Positions 27,128 through 33,244 of a DNA stretch of 64,000 bases are shown piece by piece. Numbering within the stretch: the stretch's first letter is position 1; the number at the start of each line of letters is the position of its first letter. Under the pieces are notes generated by a model. It saw only the letters and a list, made by a program, of their open reading frames with translations. It did no database searches and was not told where the DNA came from. Location: positions 90,006-154,005 of the forward strand of contig WGLV01000013.1 in the NCBI GenBank assembly GCA_016125385.1, read 5' to 3'. This DNA comes from a bacterium. Its GTDB lineage: Bacteria; Hinthialibacterota; Hinthialibacteria; Hinthialibacterales; Hinthialibacteraceae. The translations under genes were made by a program, and so were the position numbers.

Positions 27128-27526
27128 TCACGAATTTTCCAGCGCCTGGGCGTTTCTCGTTCTCGTCCTGACATACAGCGCCGTGATCGCGCAGGCCAGC
27201 GACGCGCCGGACAGATCGGCGAGCCAGTCCATCACGTCAGTGGTGCGGTTGGGCACGAAATACTGGTGGAACTCATCCGTCGCGCCGTACAACGCGGCGA
27301 GCGCGATCGCCAGCCCGGCGGCGCGCCAGGTGATCCGTGCGTACTCTCCCTTCAACAACGCCCGCAAAAACAAAAAACCCAGCAGGCCATAGAGAAAAGT
27401 ATGCGCGATTTTGTCGGGATACGGGATAAACGACGGCGGTCCGGGAAACTGCTCGCGCGACGACAGGTAAAAGATCAGCGCCATGTGAGCGATCGGAGCG
27501 AGCCAATACCGCATCGTGGATTTCAT
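27128..27526 (-). CDS. VanZ-family membrane protein
   Basis: 132 residues with four hydrophobic segments. FLYGLLGFLFLRAL and the signature DEFHQYFVPNRTTDVMDWLA place it in the VanZ-like family. VanZ of enterococci gives low-level teicoplanin resistance; most relatives have no known role. Its start (ATGA) overlaps the lipA stop, so it is the last gene of the lipoyl cluster by position, though its function may be unrelated. Confidence 0.85.
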   Translation of the reverse strand: MKSTMRYWLAPIAHMALIFYLSSREQFPGPPSFIPYPDKIAHTFLYGLLGFLFLRALLKGEYARITWRAAGLAIALAALYGATDEFHQYFVPNRTTDVMDWLADLSGASLACAITALYVRTRTRNAQALENS

Positions 27527-28404
27527 CGGGTGGACCGTTCTTCCTGACGCGGCGCCATCGCGCGCTCATACGCCCAGCGCGCGCGGTACGAGCTGCGTAC
27601 CAGCGGCCCTGACAACACCGCCGCGAAGCCCAGACTCTCGCCGAAACGCTCGTACTCGGCGAACTCTTCGCGCGAGACGACCCGGTCGACTTCGGCGTTG
27701 CGTTTGGAGGGGCGCATGTACTGCCCCACAGTGAGAATATCGCATCCCGTCGCGCGCATGGCGGCGATGGCGTCGAACATCTCTTCTTTTGATTCGCCCA
27801 GCCCCACAATGATTCCGCTTTTGGTGACGAAACCTCGTTCGTGAGCCCGGCGCAACACCTCCAGCGAAGTTTCCCACTTCGACCAGGGTTGAATCGACGG
27901 GTAAAGACGCGGCACGGTTTCTACGTTGTGGTTGAGTACGTCCGGTTTCGCTTCGAGAACCGCGTCAAGCGCTTCAACGTCGCCGCAAAAATCGGGAATC
28001 AACACTTCGATCAGACACTGAGGCCGCCGCGCGCGCGTCTCGCGAATGGTTTCGGCGAAGATCGACGCGCCGCCATCGGTCAGTTCATCACGATTAACGG
28101 AAGTAATCACCGCGTAATTCACGCCCAGCTCATCGATAGCCGACGCAACACGAACGGGCTCATCGCGGTCGACTTCAAGCGGACGGCCGTGCTGGACGGC
28201 GCAAAAGCGGCACGAACGCGTACAGATGTTGCCCAGCAGCATGAATGTGGCGGTGCGTTCGCCCCAGCATTCGCCCAGATTGGGGCAACGCGCGCTCTGG
28301 CAAACCGTATGCAGATCCTTACCCTCGACGATCTTGAGCACATCGTCGTACGCGGGACCGCCGGGCAATCTCAACCGGACTTTGGGAGTGGGAGCGATCG
28401 GCAT
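27523..28404 (-). CDS. lipA: Lipoyl synthase
   Basis: 293 residues. It inserts two sulfurs into octanoyl groups on lipoyl domains. The auxiliary cluster cysteines C35, C40, C46 (CQSARCPNLGEC) and the radical SAM cysteines C61, C65, C68 (CTRSCRFC) are all present. RSSYRA near the C-terminus holds the conserved Ser ligand of the auxiliary cluster. It is preceded by lipB and the lipoyl-domain gene on the same strand, and followed by the overlapping vanZ gene, so a four-gene unit is likely. Confidence 0.95.
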   Translation of the reverse strand: MPIAPTPKVRLRLPGGPAYDDVLKIVEGKDLHTVCQSARCPNLGECWGERTATFMLLGNICTRSCRFCAVQHGRPLEVDRDEPVRVASAIDELGVNYAVITSVNRDELTDGGASIFAETIRETRARRPQCLIEVLIPDFCGDVEALDAVLEAKPDVLNHNVETVPRLYPSIQPWSKWETSLEVLRRAHERGFVTKSGIIVGLGESKEEMFDAIAAMRATGCDILTVGQYMRPSKRNAEVDRVVSREEFAEYERFGESLGFAAVLSGPLVRSSYRARWAYERAMAPRQEERSTR

Positions 28405-28482: not shown

Positions 28483-29145
28483 TCAGGCGGCGGATTCCTT
28501 GTCGAGATACTCGGGCAGGCGTTCCAGCGCCAGCGCTTCCATGCGGTCCGCCACGTCCCATAATGACGACACCGGACGAACGGCTTCCTCCTGCAGCGAG
28601 GTGACGTGCAGGTTGGGCATTCCACACGGGACGATGCCTGAAAACGGATCGTGTTGAGGCGAGACATTGAGCGACAGGCCATGATAAGAAAAACCCTTGC
28701 GCACGCGAACGCCCACGAAACCGATTTTGCGATGGTCGACCCACGCGCCTGACTTACCCTCGATCCGCTGGACCTTCACGCCGTAACGCTCACTCAGGCC
28801 GATCATCAGGTCTTCAAGAAAACGCAGGTGACCATGAACGGTCACGCCCCGCGCGCGCAAATTGATGATGGGATACACCACCAGCTGACCGGGACCATGA
28901 TAGGTGACTTTTCCGCCGCGCGGCGATTCATGAATCGTGATCCCCTGGCTGGCGTAATATTCGATCGGCTGAAGCAGGTCTCCGGGTTCGGCCGCCGACC
29001 CCAGCGTGATGGTGGGGGGGTGTTCACACAAAATCAGGGCTTCTTCACCGTTTGAAACCCTCTCTTCCTGGCGGTGCGAAGCCTCTTCATACGACAGGTC
29101 CTGCGTCCAGCGCAGAACGGGAATTTCAGCGAAACGATCCGGCAT
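28483..29145 (-). CDS. lipB: Octanoyltransferase
   Basis: 220 residues. LipB moves octanoate from acyl carrier protein to lipoyl-domain lysines. PRGGKVTYHGPGQLVVYP, KSGAWVDHRKIGFVGVRV with the catalytic Lys, and the active-site Cys in VPCGM are intact. AAGGAG nine bases upstream makes ATG 29145 the start. It lies 78 bases before lipA and 36 bases after the lipoyl-domain gene. Confidence 0.95.
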   Translation of the reverse strand: MPDRFAEIPVLRWTQDLSYEEASHRQEERVSNGEEALILCEHPPTITLGSAAEPGDLLQPIEYYASQGITIHESPRGGKVTYHGPGQLVVYPIINLRARGVTVHGHLRFLEDLMIGLSERYGVKVQRIEGKSGAWVDHRKIGFVGVRVRKGFSYHGLSLNVSPQHDPFSGIVPCGMPNLHVTSLQEEAVRPVSSLWDVADRMEALALERLPEYLDKESAA

Positions 29146-29181
29146 CAATCCTGGCTCCTTGCGTCGTGCGTTCGACCGCCT

Positions 29182-29463
29182 TTACGCGCCGGGGCGCTGG
29201 GCGAGCATGGCCTCGGCGTCTTCGCCGGGCTTGCCGATAACCGCGATTACGGCGCCGGCGGGCAGTTCTTCACCCACCGAGGCGACGATTTTAAGCAGCG
29301 TACCGCTCTCCAGCGCTTCGAGCTCCATGGCGGCTTTGTCGGTTTCGATCTCGGCGATGGCGTCGCCTTCTTCAACCGCGTCGCCTTCCTGTTTGAGCCA
29401 GTTCAGCAGCTTGGCGGTGACCATGGTATCGCTCAATTTCGGCATTTCGAGAACCGTCGCCAT
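29182..29463 (-). CDS. Free-standing E2-type lipoyl-domain protein
   Basis: 93 residues that make a single complete lipoyl domain. MPKLSDTMVTAKLLNWLKQE is the opening of the 2-oxoacid dehydrogenase E2 lipoyl domain; the modified lysine is K43 in EIETDKAAME; GTLLKIVASVGEELPAGAV closes the sandwich. A short Glu/Ala tail and a stop follow, with no peripheral-subunit or catalytic domain. It is the first gene of the run with lipB, lipA and vanZ. In sequence it is not GcvH- or biotin-carrier-like. It may be the substrate of the local LipB/LipA pair, or the leftover N-terminus of an E2 gene. No E1 or E3 gene is near. Confidence 0.88.
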   Translation of the reverse strand: MATVLEMPKLSDTMVTAKLLNWLKQEGDAVEEGDAIAEIETDKAAMELEALESGTLLKIVASVGEELPAGAVIAVIGKPGEDAEAMLAQRPGA

Positions 29464-29533
29464 GCGTAATCTCTCCTCAATAACCCGGTGAATTTTCGTT
29501 TTTTGCTGGAACGCGAGGTGAAAAAATCGTTGC

Positions 29534-29561
29534 TTGACACGAAGGGCTGGTTCACTATGAT
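29534..29561 (+). promoter_or_regulatory. Candidate sigma-70 promoter for dnaE
   Basis: TTGACA at 29534-29539 (perfect -35), 16 bases, then TATGAT at 29556-29561. The ATG of dnaE is about 107 bases downstream, which leaves a sizeable leader. Confidence 0.65.
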
Positions 29562-29668: not shown

Positions 29669-32600
29669 ATGTCAACTTCTTCCTTCGTCCATCTTCACGT
29701 CCACTCCGAGTACAGCCTGCTCGACGGGGCCTGCCGTCTCAAAGAGCTGGTTAAACAGGCCAAGTCATTGAATATGTCACACTTGGCGCTGACCGATCAC
29801 GGCGTGATGCATGGTTCGCTTGAATTTTACAAAATGGCGAAAGCCGAGGGGATCCAGCCCATTCTGGGCATGGAAGCCTACATGGCGCCCCATAGCCGCC
29901 ACGACAAAAGCGGCGGACGCGACACCTCCATCGACGACCGGTCCGACAAAACCAGTTTCCATCTCGTCCTGCTCGCGAAGGATTTTACCGGGTATCAGAA
30001 CCTGATGCGCCTCGCCTCCATCGCCCAGCTGGAGGGCTTTTACTACAAACCGCGCATCGACCGCGAAATATTGCGCGAGTATTCAGAAGGGCTGATCGGT
30101 CTTTCGGCGTGCCTCAAGGGCGAAGTGGCGAACGCCATTCTTGAAGATAACTACGAACTCGCCCGCAAAAACGCGAAAGACTATCTCTCCATTTTCGATG
30201 AAGGCAATTTCTACCTCGAAGTACAACCCAACGGCCTGATCGAACAGGACATCGTCAACAAGGGACTGCGCGAGTTATCAAAAGAGCTTTCTATTCCCCT
30301 GGTGGCGACCACCGACGTGCATTATCTGAATCCCGAAGGCGCGAAAACGCAGGATTGCCTGATCTGTATCGGTACCAAGAAGACGCTCTCCGACCCGAAC
30401 CGGCTCAAACTTTCCACCCAGGAGCTCTACCTCAAGTCGGGCGAAAAGATGACCGAACAGTTCCCCGATTTCGCCGACGCGGTCGAAAATACCCGGCTGG
30501 TGGCCGAGCAGTGCAACCTCGCGTTCAGTTACGACGGCTCCAAGCTCATCATGCCGTCGTTCGACATCCCTGAAGATGAAGAATCGCACGAAGATTACCT
30601 GCGCAACCTGGTGTACAAGGGAGCGAAAGAACGCTACGGCGAAGTTACGGAAGAAATCGCCGCGCGGATCGAAAAAGAACTTGAAGTCATCCTCGGGCAG
30701 GACTTCACCGGTTACTTTCTCATCGTTTGGGATTACATCAATTTCGCGCGGGAAAAGAAAATCTCCGTGGGGCCGGGGCGCGGATCGGCGGCGGGCTCGG
30801 TGGTGGCCTACTGTCTCTACATTACCGACATCGACCCCATCAAATACAACCTGCTGTTCGAACGCTTTCTCAATCCCGAACGCATCTCGCCGCCTGATAT
30901 CGACACCGACTTTTCCGACAAGCGGCGTGAAGAAGTCATCCGCTACGTGCAGGAGAAATACGGTCACGACCGCGTCGCCCAGATCTGCACCTTCGGCACC
31001 ATCGGCGCCAAAAACGCCGTGCGCGATGTGGCCCGCGTCATGGGCCTGCCCGCCGCCGAGGGCGACCGCATCGCCAAATTGATTCCCGACGGGCTGGGCG
31101 TCACGCTCAGTCAGGCCCTGGAAGATGTTCCCGAATTAAAAAAACTGCGCGATCAGGACAGCATCCATCAGGAGTTGTTCCGCCACGCGCTCGCCGTCGA
31201 AGGCATGGTGCGCCAGACCTCGACGCACGCCGCCGGCGTCATCATCGCGCCCGACGCGCTGTACAAGTTCACCCCGCTGATGCGCGGCGCCAACAAAGAC
31301 GAAGACGTCGCGACCCAGTATGAAATGAAGTCGCTGGAGACCATCGGCCTGCTCAAGATGGACTTTCTCGGCCTCAAAAACCTCTCCGTCATCGACGGCG
31401 CGGTCGAGATCATCCGCGAGCGCTACCAGCCCGATTTCGACATCAACGACATCCCGATGGATGACGAAAAGACCTATGAGCTGTTGTGCCGCGCCAAAAC
31501 CAACGGCGTGTTCCAGCTCGAATCGACCGGCATCAAAGAAGTGTTGCGCAAGCTCGAACCGCGCTATTTCACCGACGTGGTGGCGCTGCTCGCGCTCTAC
31601 CGCCCCGGCCCGCTGGGCAGCGGCATGGTCGACGACTTCATCAACCGGCGTCACGGGCGCGCCGAGATCGTCTACGACCACCCTTCGCTCGAACCGATTC
31701 TGAAAGAGACCTACGGCATCATTCTCTATCAGGAACAGGTCATGCAGATCGCTAATGCCATCGGCGGCTTCACCCTCGGCCAGGCCGATATCATGCGCCG
31801 CGCGATGGGCAAGAAAAAAGAAGACCTGTTGCGCAAGATGGAAGATGAATTCAACGAGGGAGCGAAAAAGAAAAACGTCCCCCTCGCCACCGCGCAGCGC
31901 CTGTGGAACCTGATATTCAAATTCGCGGGCTACGGCTTTAACAAGTCGCACAGCGCCGCCTACGCCGTCGTCACCTACCGCACAGCCTACTTGAAGGCGA
32001 ATTTTCCCGACGCGTTTCTCGCCTCGCTGCTCACCACCGATATGGGCGATTCGAACAAGGTGGTGAAATACCGCGGCGACTGCAACGATCTGGGCATCGC
32101 CCTGCTGCCCCCCGACATCAACGAATCGAACGAAAACTTCACCGCCACCGACGAAGGCATCCGCTTCGGATTGGCGGCCATTAAAAGCGTGGGCGTGGGC
32201 GCGGTGCGCGCCATCATTTACGAGCGCACGCGCAACGGCGCGTTCAAATCACTCGACGATTTCTGCACTCGGCTGGTGGGCGGCGCCATCACCAAGGCGG
32301 TGATCGAGAGCCTGATCCGGGTGGGCGCGTTCGACTCGTTCAACCAGACGCGCGCCACCATGATCGCCGCGTACCCCAACACGCTGGAACGCATTCAGGG
32401 CGAGATGCACGACCGCGCCATCGGACAGGATTCGCTCTTCGGCGATTTCGGCGACGAACCCGAGCCGGATGACGCCCCCGCCGCCGAAGACCTGCCCGAA
32501 CTGGAAACGAAGGAAATTCTGAGCGATGAAAAACGCCTGCTGGGCTTCTGGCTCAGCGGCCATCCCCTGATGGATTATCAGGCGGAGATCGAACTCTTCG

Positions 32601-33244
32601 CCACCCATCAGGCGGGGCCTCTCAACGAACAGGAAGAACTGGGCGCGGTGAGGCTGCTCGGCATCGTCAATGAACTGAAAAAGAAGAAAACGCGCAACAA
32701 CGACCGCATGGCGGTTTTTGTGCTCGCCGACATGAGCGGCGAAGTCGAAGTGGCGGTCATGCCCAACCTGCTTGAAAAATGCGAACACCTGTTGAAAGAC
32801 GATGAGGTCGTCGTGCTGGAGGGTCAGGCCAGCCATCGCGGCGATCAAGTCTCGGTACGCGCCGACCGGCTACTGACGATGGACGAATGCTGGCGGCAAT
32901 CGGTGCGCGAGATGCAGCTCTACGTCACCCCGGAACGCTTCGACGAGCAACGCATGATGCAGCTCAAGGGCCGGCTGCTGGGGTCGAGCGGCTCCGTGCC
33001 GGTGGTGATGTTCATCAAGGTTCCTGAACTGGGCACGGTCAAATACGAATTGGAACAGTCGTTCAACATCGAACCCAGCCGCGACCTCAAAACCGCGCTG
33101 GAAGAGATTCTTGAATCGGGTTCGGTGCGCTTCGCCGGCGGCGGCATGCCGCGCGCCAGCGCGGGCGGCAATGGGCGCGGTTACGGCAACGGCCGCGGGT
33201 ATAACGGCGGCCCACGCCGCAATGGCAACGGCGGCAACGGATAA
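29669..33244 (+). CDS. dnaE: DNA polymerase III alpha subunit
   Basis: 1191 residues, the replicative polymerase. A PHP domain opens the protein (HLHVHSEYSLLDG, residues 8-20). The catalytic Asp pair lies in PDIDTDF at about 409-415, with GPGRGSAAGSVVAYC just before it. HhH and OB-fold regions (DMSGEVEVAVMP, about 1030) are in place. The last 40 residues are unusual: Gly/Asn/Arg-rich (GGNGRGYGNGRGYNGGP), low complexity, and absent from typical DnaE. No Shine-Dalgarno site precedes the ATG. The stop overlaps the next gene by one base (TAATG). Confidence 0.96.
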   Translation: MSTSSFVHLHVHSEYSLLDGACRLKELVKQAKSLNMSHLALTDHGVMHGSLEFYKMAKAEGIQPILGMEAYMAPHSRHDKSGGRDTSIDDRSDKTSFHLVLLAKDFTGYQNLMRLASIAQLEGFYYKPRIDREILREYSEGLIGLSACLKGEVANAILEDNYELARKNAKDYLSIFDEGNFYLEVQPNGLIEQDIVNKGLRELSKELSIPLVATTDVHYLNPEGAKTQDCLICIGTKKTLSDPNRLKLSTQELYLKSGEKMTEQFPDFADAVENTRLVAEQCNLAFSYDGSKLIMPSFDIPEDEESHEDYLRNLVYKGAKERYGEVTEEIAARIEKELEVILGQDFTGYFLIVWDYINFAREKKISVGPGRGSAAGSVVAYCLYITDIDPIKYNLLFERFLNPERISPPDIDTDFSDKRREEVIRYVQEKYGHDRVAQICTFGTIGAKNAVRDVARVMGLPAAEGDRIAKLIPDGLGVTLSQALEDVPELKKLRDQDSIHQELFRHALAVEGMVRQTSTHAAGVIIAPDALYKFTPLMRGANKDEDVATQYEMKSLETIGLLKMDFLGLKNLSVIDGAVEIIRERYQPDFDINDIPMDDEKTYELLCRAKTNGVFQLESTGIKEVLRKLEPRYFTDVVALLALYRPGPLGSGMVDDFINRRHGRAEIVYDHPSLEPILKETYGIILYQEQVMQIANAIGGFTLGQADIMRRAMGKKKEDLLRKMEDEFNEGAKKKNVPLATAQRLWNLIFKFAGYGFNKSHSAAYAVVTYRTAYLKANFPDAFLASLLTTDMGDSNKVVKYRGDCNDLGIALLPPDINESNENFTATDEGIRFGLAAIKSVGVGAVRAIIYERTRNGAFKSLDDFCTRLVGGAITKAVIESLIRVGAFDSFNQTRATMIAAYPNTLERIQGEMHDRAIGQDSLFGDFGDEPEPDDAPAAEDLPELETKEILSDEKRLLGFWLSGHPLMDYQAEIELFATHQAGPLNEQEELGAVRLLGIVNELKKKKTRNNDRMAVFVLADMSGEVEVAVMPNLLEKCEHLLKDDEVVVLEGQASHRGDQVSVRADRLLTMDECWRQSVREMQLYVTPERFDEQRMMQLKGRLLGSSGSVPVVMFIKVPELGTVKYELEQSFNIEPSRDLKTALEEILESGSVRFAGGGMPRASAGGNGRGYGNGRGYNGGPRRNGNGGNG

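Follow-up and report, generated by a model that had tools for sequence, protein, structure and literature searches.

A standalone E2-type lipoyl domain gene beside lipB and lipA in Hinthialibacteraceae, very probably the surviving 5' end of pdhC

Introduction

In the established pathway, LipB loads octanoate and LipA turns the octanoyl group into lipoyl. Eukaryotic PDHX (protein X), the E3-binding protein of pyruvate dehydrogenase (PDH), keeps a core-like domain and sits in the PDH complex. Carriers consisting of one lipoyl domain have been described. According to PMC6067878 and PMC10332631, LbpA is the GcvH-type single-lipoyl-domain carrier of sHdr sulfur oxidation, and according to PMC4518038, GcvH-L is a GcvH-type single-lipoyl-domain carrier that occurs with LplA2, in LplA2/SirTM operons. 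In the first two papers, the GcvH of Bacillus subtilis donates to E2 through LipL, and LipB is termed an all-purpose transferase (PMC10332631); PMC6270654 states that E1 accepts a lipoyl domain fragment as a substrate. In the parts of the open-licence literature that were searched, no description was found of E2-type standalone carriers beside lipB/lipA.

The stretch of DNA analysed here (the window, 64,000 nucleotides of contig WGLV01000013.1) encodes a 93-residue protein that consists of a lipoyl domain. The source genome of the window is G000; among 98 genomes, five others (G001-G005) share its family, and each represents a different genus. Like LbpA and GcvH-L, the window protein is encoded with lipoylation enzymes (PMC6067878 and PMC4518038); unlike them, it is E2-type and stands with LipB and LipA, whereas they are GcvH-type and served by LplA-type ligases. 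With the PDH E2 (PdhC, TIGR01349 type) it shares an N-terminal lipoyl domain with MPKLSDTM and ETDKA motifs, and residues 1-95 of the G003 E2 match its ORF at 62% identity (tblastn, E 3.6e-31), but it has neither the E3-binding domain nor the acetyltransferase core. The likeness to PDHX lies in the G001 homologue, which is a lipoyl plus E3-binding protein without a core, and in the PDHX lipoyl domains among the best solved-structure matches of the window protein; the difference is that no core is left at the window and G001 loci and that the cognate PDH genes are gone from them.

Domain content, predicted fold and gene order

The lipoyl ORF (Table 1) is intact in frame from an ATG start to a TAA stop. 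Its product matches PF00364 (Biotin_lipoyl) over residues 4-76, profile positions 2-73 of 73, and a Pfam scan found no second family in it at E 0.001. The sequence-only reading had described a complete E2-type lipoyl domain of 93 residues with Lys43, a stop of its own and no catalytic domain, and this full-length match without a core bears it out. The best NCBIfam match is to the N-terminus of PDH E2 (TIGR01349, positions 2-84 of 437, 81.9 bits); the score is far under the full-length cut-off of 445, as expected, because only one domain of the full-length model is present. E2-type models score up to 82 bits on the window protein, against at most 26 bits for biotin/lipoyl carrier and carboxylase models. 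As in a PDH E2, the lipoyl domain with its DKA lysine stands at the N-terminus. Lys43 is invariant in alignments A1 (16 rows) and A2 (30 rows), and in the AlphaFold2 model (mean pLDDT 83.7, pTM 0.66), whose strands are arranged as in a lipoyl domain, it is located in the turn between strands 35-40 and 45-49. The solved-structure sequence matches are led by the lipoyl domains of PDH E2 and PDHX, and the fold matches of the model comprise E2/PDHX lipoyl domains and biotin carriers, the latter being expected for this fold. In biotin carrier domains, the biotinyl lysine is found in an AMKM-type motif. A biotin carrier was considered and ruled out for the window protein, whose lysine is in ETDKAAM instead.

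Both the E3-binding domain and the 2-oxoacid dehydrogenase acyltransferase core are missing from the window protein; in G000, PF02817 is matched by AceF and SucB only, and PF00198 only on contigs C39 and C18. The G000 matches to the GCV_H domain PF01597 are on C33 (139 bits) and C48 (37 bits), neither at the lipoyl locus. A PDHX-like pair of lipoyl and E3-binding domains is present in the G001 homologue, and the window protein has the lipoyl domain alone. Neither mark of a pseudogene was found: the frame is unbroken, and neutral substitution (omega = 1) is rejected, with saturated synonymous sites.

Table 1. Features of the window at and around the lipoyl gene
Feature	Position	Strand	Basis
Standalone E2-type lipoyl domain protein, 93 aa (very probable pdhC remnant)	29182..29463	-	PF00364 E 7e-19; tblastn
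Lys43 codon, predicted lipoylation site (ETDKAAM)	29335..29337	-	sequence; model; alignments
lipB, octanoyl transferase	28483..29148	-	TIGR00214 127.6 bits, cut-off 83.55; PF21948
lipA, lipoyl synthase	27523..28404	-	TIGR00510 321.5 bits, cut-off 310.25
VanZ-like protein, conserved 3' of lipA	27128..27526	-	PF04892; same position in G001, G002
dnaE, DNA polymerase III alpha, divergent	29669..33244	+	Pfam PF07733, PF17657, PF02811
Shine-Dalgarno-like GAGGAGAGA (GAGGAG) 5' of the lipoyl ORF	29470..29478	-	by eye
TTGACA-N16-TATGAT promoter-like site for divergent dnaE	29534..29561	+	by eye

The lipoyl ORF is followed on its strand by lipB, lipA and vanZ, and dnaE is divergent upstream. The proposal that it directly precedes lipB and lipA therefore stands, as both are 3' on the same strand and score above the cut-offs of their models. 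lipB starts 33 bases past the lipoyl stop and has an AAGGAG site of its own. dnaE is a conserved neighbour that marks the ancestral locus, since it has the same position in G001 and G003-G005 and is also on the G002 contig; a promoter-like element resembling TTGACA-N16-TATGAT precedes it in G001-G004 and, in weaker form, in G005 (by eye).

The same locus in related genera

At the position beside dnaE, G003, G004 and G005 carry pdhA-pdhB-pdhC(E2)-lpd-lipB, with E1 alpha and beta upstream of E2 and lpd and lipB downstream; lpd was identified by scanning in G003 and G002, and by resemblance only in G004 and G005. A methyltransferase-like gene (named by eye) is inserted at the G003 locus. The E2 frames of 432 aa (G003), 423 aa (G004) and 417 aa (G005) each comprise a lipoyl domain, an E3-binding domain and a catalytic core. 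The G002 locus is broken over two contigs, the first of which holds dnaE, E1 alpha, E1 beta and the E2 N-terminus; the second holds the rest of E2 and the Lpd, LipB, LipA, VanZ, TIGR00730-type and NeuB-like proteins, and its downstream order is that of the window. The window protein aligns with the N-terminus of these operon E2s. A related genome in which the same sequence continues into an E2 catalytic domain had been named beforehand as the sign of truncation, and G003, G004 and G005 show such a continuation at this locus, as does G002 across its contig break.

In G001, the locus carries a 170-aa protein (L120:8211-8723) with PF00364 (2.8e-17) and PF02817 (1.5e-16) and without a core, and its stop overlaps the likely lipB start as ATGA. 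Its E3-binding domain has the top score (63.4 bits) of the nine listed in six family genomes. When the PdhA, PdhB, E2 and Lpd proteins of the relatives were searched against the window and L120 by tblastn, only the E2 N-terminus was matched; no remnants of pdhA, pdhB, the E2 core or lpd were found at either locus below E 0.04. G000 and G001 are taken as sisters because their DnaE identity is 78%, against 65-68% to the other family genomes. The question of whether relatives share the gene order thus has a divided answer: lipB is at the locus in all of G001-G005, and the lone lipoyl domain is replaced by a lipoyl plus E3-binding protein (G001) or a full E2 (G002-G005).

Among the 80 loci kept from a contig search, 79 continue into an E2 core, and the remaining one, on a contig that equals that of G002 in length, is cut at the contig end. 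In the lipoyl-domain tree, the six family members are grouped with moderate support (85/75), apart from the AceF and SucB lipoyl domains of G000, whose position is unsure because their branches are long. The window lipoyl domain shares 56-65% identity with its counterparts in the E2 proteins of G002-G005 and two Verrucomicrobiota loci, and 31-45% with the four standalone lipoyl proteins compared.

The operon taken as ancestral, with its gene order shown by synteny, is pdhA-pdhB-pdhC-lpd-lipB-lipA-vanZ, divergent from dnaE, and the lipoyl ORF is almost certainly the surviving 5' end of its pdhC. We infer that the direction of change was loss and not gain. In the G000/G001 lineage, pdhA and pdhB would have been lost from one flank, and the E2 core and lpd from the opposite one; erosion would have left the lipoyl and E3-binding domains in G001 and the lipoyl domain alone in G000, and both remainders have a start, ribosome site and stop of their own. 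This suggests that G001 represents another stage of the same erosion, in which the E3-docking piece was kept and the core is gone.

Constraint on the lone domain

The G000 and G001 proteins end at different points; the TDKA lipoylation turn is preserved in both, as are the invariant glycines. Their lipoyl domains are 59% identical over 90 codons (NG86 dN 0.32, dS 0.98). The ratio of lipoyl dN to DnaE dN is 1.99 for this pair, and for E2-embedded domains it is 0.70-0.93 (six pairs); relative to DnaE, the lone lipoyl domain evolves about twice as fast as the E2-embedded ones, yet far from neutrally. The corresponding ratio for lipB is 2.45 in G000-G001, against 1.29-1.51 in three other pairs. 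In a codon branch model, omega = 1 on the two terminal branches (G000 and G001) is rejected (2 delta lnL 46), and there is no omega difference between the terminal and the other branches (2 delta lnL 0.5); because synonymous sites are saturated and branch lengths are at bounds, the omega values themselves are unusable and only the rejection of neutrality is kept. Should the truncations be recent or independent, part of this signal could stem from constraint that acted before them. On these data, the lipoyl ORF is probably kept for some function.

Other 2-oxoacid dehydrogenase genes in the family

E2 genes elsewhere in the genome, which the sequence-only reading had proposed to look for, do exist. 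G000 and G001 have two E2 cores each, away from the locus, and these are AceF of an AceE-type pyruvate dehydrogenase and SucB of 2-oxoglutarate dehydrogenase; in G002-G005, the operon E2 is the only E2 of each genome. The G000 AceF scores below the TIGR01348 cut-off, and the G000 aceE product reaches 1347 bits with TIGR00759. The G000 AceF carries a single lipoyl domain, and the G001 AceF carries two. No orphan E2 core was found elsewhere in G000 or G001, all cores being AceF or SucB; since the G000 assembly is 95.8% complete and in 77 contigs, absences elsewhere in it are not absolute. Between G000 and G001, AceE is 77% identical and the LplA-like protein encoded beside it 59%, and the second pyruvate dehydrogenase is therefore probably older than the split of the two lineages. 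It appears that this AceE-type enzyme displaced the old PdhAB-type one.

The AceE-type PDH genes stand with a divergent single-domain LplA-like gene at L126:9563-14514 (G000, C18) and L186:4720-11411 (G001, C3). The LplA-like protein scores 103.6 bits with the lipoate ligase model TIGR00545, below the cut-off of 280, against 36.1 bits with the octanoyl-GcvH transferase model and 26.7 bits with LipL. G003, in which E2 is intact, has a copy that is 49% identical.

A leftover PdhA-type E1 in G000 was considered and rejected, the sole strong PF00676 match being the E1 of 2-oxoglutarate dehydrogenase; two weak matches (36 and 27 bits) are on C6 and C24. An E1 alpha/beta pair on C39 of G001 (L185:5512-7634) is found among sugar-biosynthesis-like genes, and a second E1 pair of G002 (L188:5785-7757) is beside a transaldolase-like gene (both contexts by eye). 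Neither pair has an E2 nearby, and the TIGR03182 scores of both alpha subunits are under the cut-off of that model.

Standalone lipoyl proteins beside lipB in other lineages

A LipB match was present in 189 of the 386 genomes searched, and 120 lipB neighbourhoods were chosen among the matches listed, some same-family genomes and the lowest of these matches being skipped. As a plain count of loci, ten of these 120 have a lipoyl protein without an E2 core on the same strand near lipB. lipA is also close in nine of the ten. The loci belong to families f20, f80 and f106 (two each) and f31, f72, f189 and f225 (one each); in those of f106 (L303 and L312), the frame continues upstream (238 and 206 codons) of the short start, which is our own reading. 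An eleventh case, G028 of f20 (L195), was found through its lipoyl domain, outside the ten of 120. Left uncounted were L258, L267, L307 and L342, which lack an E2 core match and have long, two-domain or cut frames; L258:4757-5605 (G087), for instance, has two lipoyl domains in one frame that comes right after lpd and lipB and is truncated where the contig ends. The lipoyl HMM of the survey was built from alignment A1, which includes proteins of G028, G010, G012 and G013.

These proteins resemble the window protein in size, in having no E2 core in frame and in their proximity to lipB and usually lipA. They differ in sequence type (e.g., PELGxxxxxATVxFW...TDKAxF), with a domain part of about 75-85 aa, and in that some are in one-carbon clusters with lpd. 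The latter are those of f72 and f189, with formate-THF ligase, FTCD_C and FolD or with an MTHFR set: at L288:565-7015 (G080), a standalone lipoyl protein (77-79 aa), lpd, lipB and lipA are found among FTHFS, FTCD_C and FolD, and at L241:1593-6409 (G351), the same set with a protein of 77-79 aa is found among MTHFR and MTHFR C-terminal-like genes. G010, G012 and G013, from a sister family within the class of the window genome, have an 80-84 aa standalone lipoyl protein of another sequence type (LTDKANF). The genes of this type, at L191:2374-6624, L192:1983-4450 and L193:3936-6417, precede those of a PfkB kinase and a homoserine dehydrogenase (neighbours Pfam-scanned at L191 only), and in G010, a lipA-like gene (by eye) is just upstream of the lipoyl gene, with one opposite-strand gene between.

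With E2-core frames near lipB in 27 survey rows, PDH-type genes are common neighbours of lipB in the survey set. In 80 E2 loci with flanks of up to 6 kb, narrow HMMs found lipB in one and E1 beta in 53, and this count of one in 80 speaks against a general PDH-lipB linkage.

Discussion

Taken as a whole, the likely explanation is that the surviving 5' end of pdhC has been kept as a small diffusible lipoyl carrier. We favour a retained carrier over debris because the piece is intact and constrained and neutrality is rejected. From the known pathway, Lys43 would be octanoylated by LipB and then sulfurated by LipA, both from the same operon. As the protein has neither core nor E3-binding domain, it would be a free lipoyl carrier, detached from any 2-oxoacid dehydrogenase core, and it may act as a dithiol/disulfide swinging arm served by dihydrolipoamide dehydrogenase. 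A redox carrier specifically, working through Lpd, is our preferred guess and a tentative one; the loss of lpd from the window locus counts against it. OsmC/Ohr proteins are clients of lipoylated proteins. The OsmC/Ohr family PF02566 was found in two of the six family genomes (G003 and G004) and in neither G000 nor G001, and Ohr is unlikely as the redox partner because no OsmC-family protein was found in the 95.8% complete G000. Of the three readings offered from sequence, the truncated E2 leftover is right for the origin, and the free carrier is compatible with that origin and favoured as the present role; no observation speaks in particular for the third, a lipoate reserve.

It is also conceivable that the ORF is a functionless, decaying relic, whose frame is still unbroken owing to its small size or to its place at the head of the transcript, where it would aid translation of lipB. 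The faster evolution of the lone domain, the differing 3' ends of G001 and G000, the ATGA overlap in G001 and the faster evolution of lipB in this pair all fit such decay, which we nevertheless regard as rather unlikely: neutral evolution is rejected on the terminal branches, though with saturated synonymous sites, the lipoylation turn and the invariant glycines are intact in both genomes, the E3-binding domain of G001 scores above those of the operon E2s of G002-G005 (52-57 bits), the window lipB has a ribosome site of its own, and flanking genes were lost on either side with the lipoyl domain untouched. A lipoyl-assembly relay, in which LipB and LipA first load the small domain and its lipoyl group is then handed on by a transferase or ligase to AceF, SucB or GcvH, agrees with the shared operon, with the LplA-like protein adjoining aceE in G000 and G001 and with the GcvH-LipL relay established elsewhere (PMC6067878 and PMC10332631). 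It is improbable, as the LplA-like protein fits lipoate ligase better than octanoyl-GcvH transferase or LipL, G003 has its copy despite an intact E2, and no relay is required if LipB is an all-purpose transferase, as it is called in PMC10332631.

The differing number of AceF lipoyl domains in G000 and G001 might point to a trans-acting role, in which the window protein serves AceE or 2-oxoglutarate dehydrogenase as an extra lipoyl domain. However, it resembles the PdhAB-type E2 (TIGR01349), is separated in the tree from the lipoyl domains of AceF and SucB, whose branches there are long, is unlinked to aceEF or sucAB and has no E3-binding domain, all of which make such a role quite improbable. 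That the protein is no E2 piece and belongs to an old family of standalone lipoyl carriers is hardly credible; seven other families do have standalone lipoyl proteins beside lipB, but synteny and sequence put the window protein at the N-terminus of its own family's pdhC, with its higher identity to E2 lipoyl domains than to the four standalone proteins.

Whatever its present role, the locus shows a multidomain enzyme gene reduced in place to the domain that carries the cofactor, with the modifying-enzyme genes still adjoining, and two stages of the erosion are visible in sister genera (G001 and G000). If the piece is a relic, it is a clean case of domain-wise gene erosion after enzyme replacement. 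If the favoured carrier is functional, lipoate gains a client beyond the lipoate-dependent complexes described so far, and the recurrent standalone lipoyl proteins beside lipB make the question of the client testable in several lineages. Free E2-type carriers with LipB-LipA, sometimes with Lpd, may perhaps form an overlooked general class of protein-bound dithiol carriers that arose repeatedly, here by erosion of an E2 with the E3-docking intermediate of G001, although we put this forward only as a speculation. If true, the family Hinthialibacteraceae would catch one such carrier arising from a pyruvate dehydrogenase E2.
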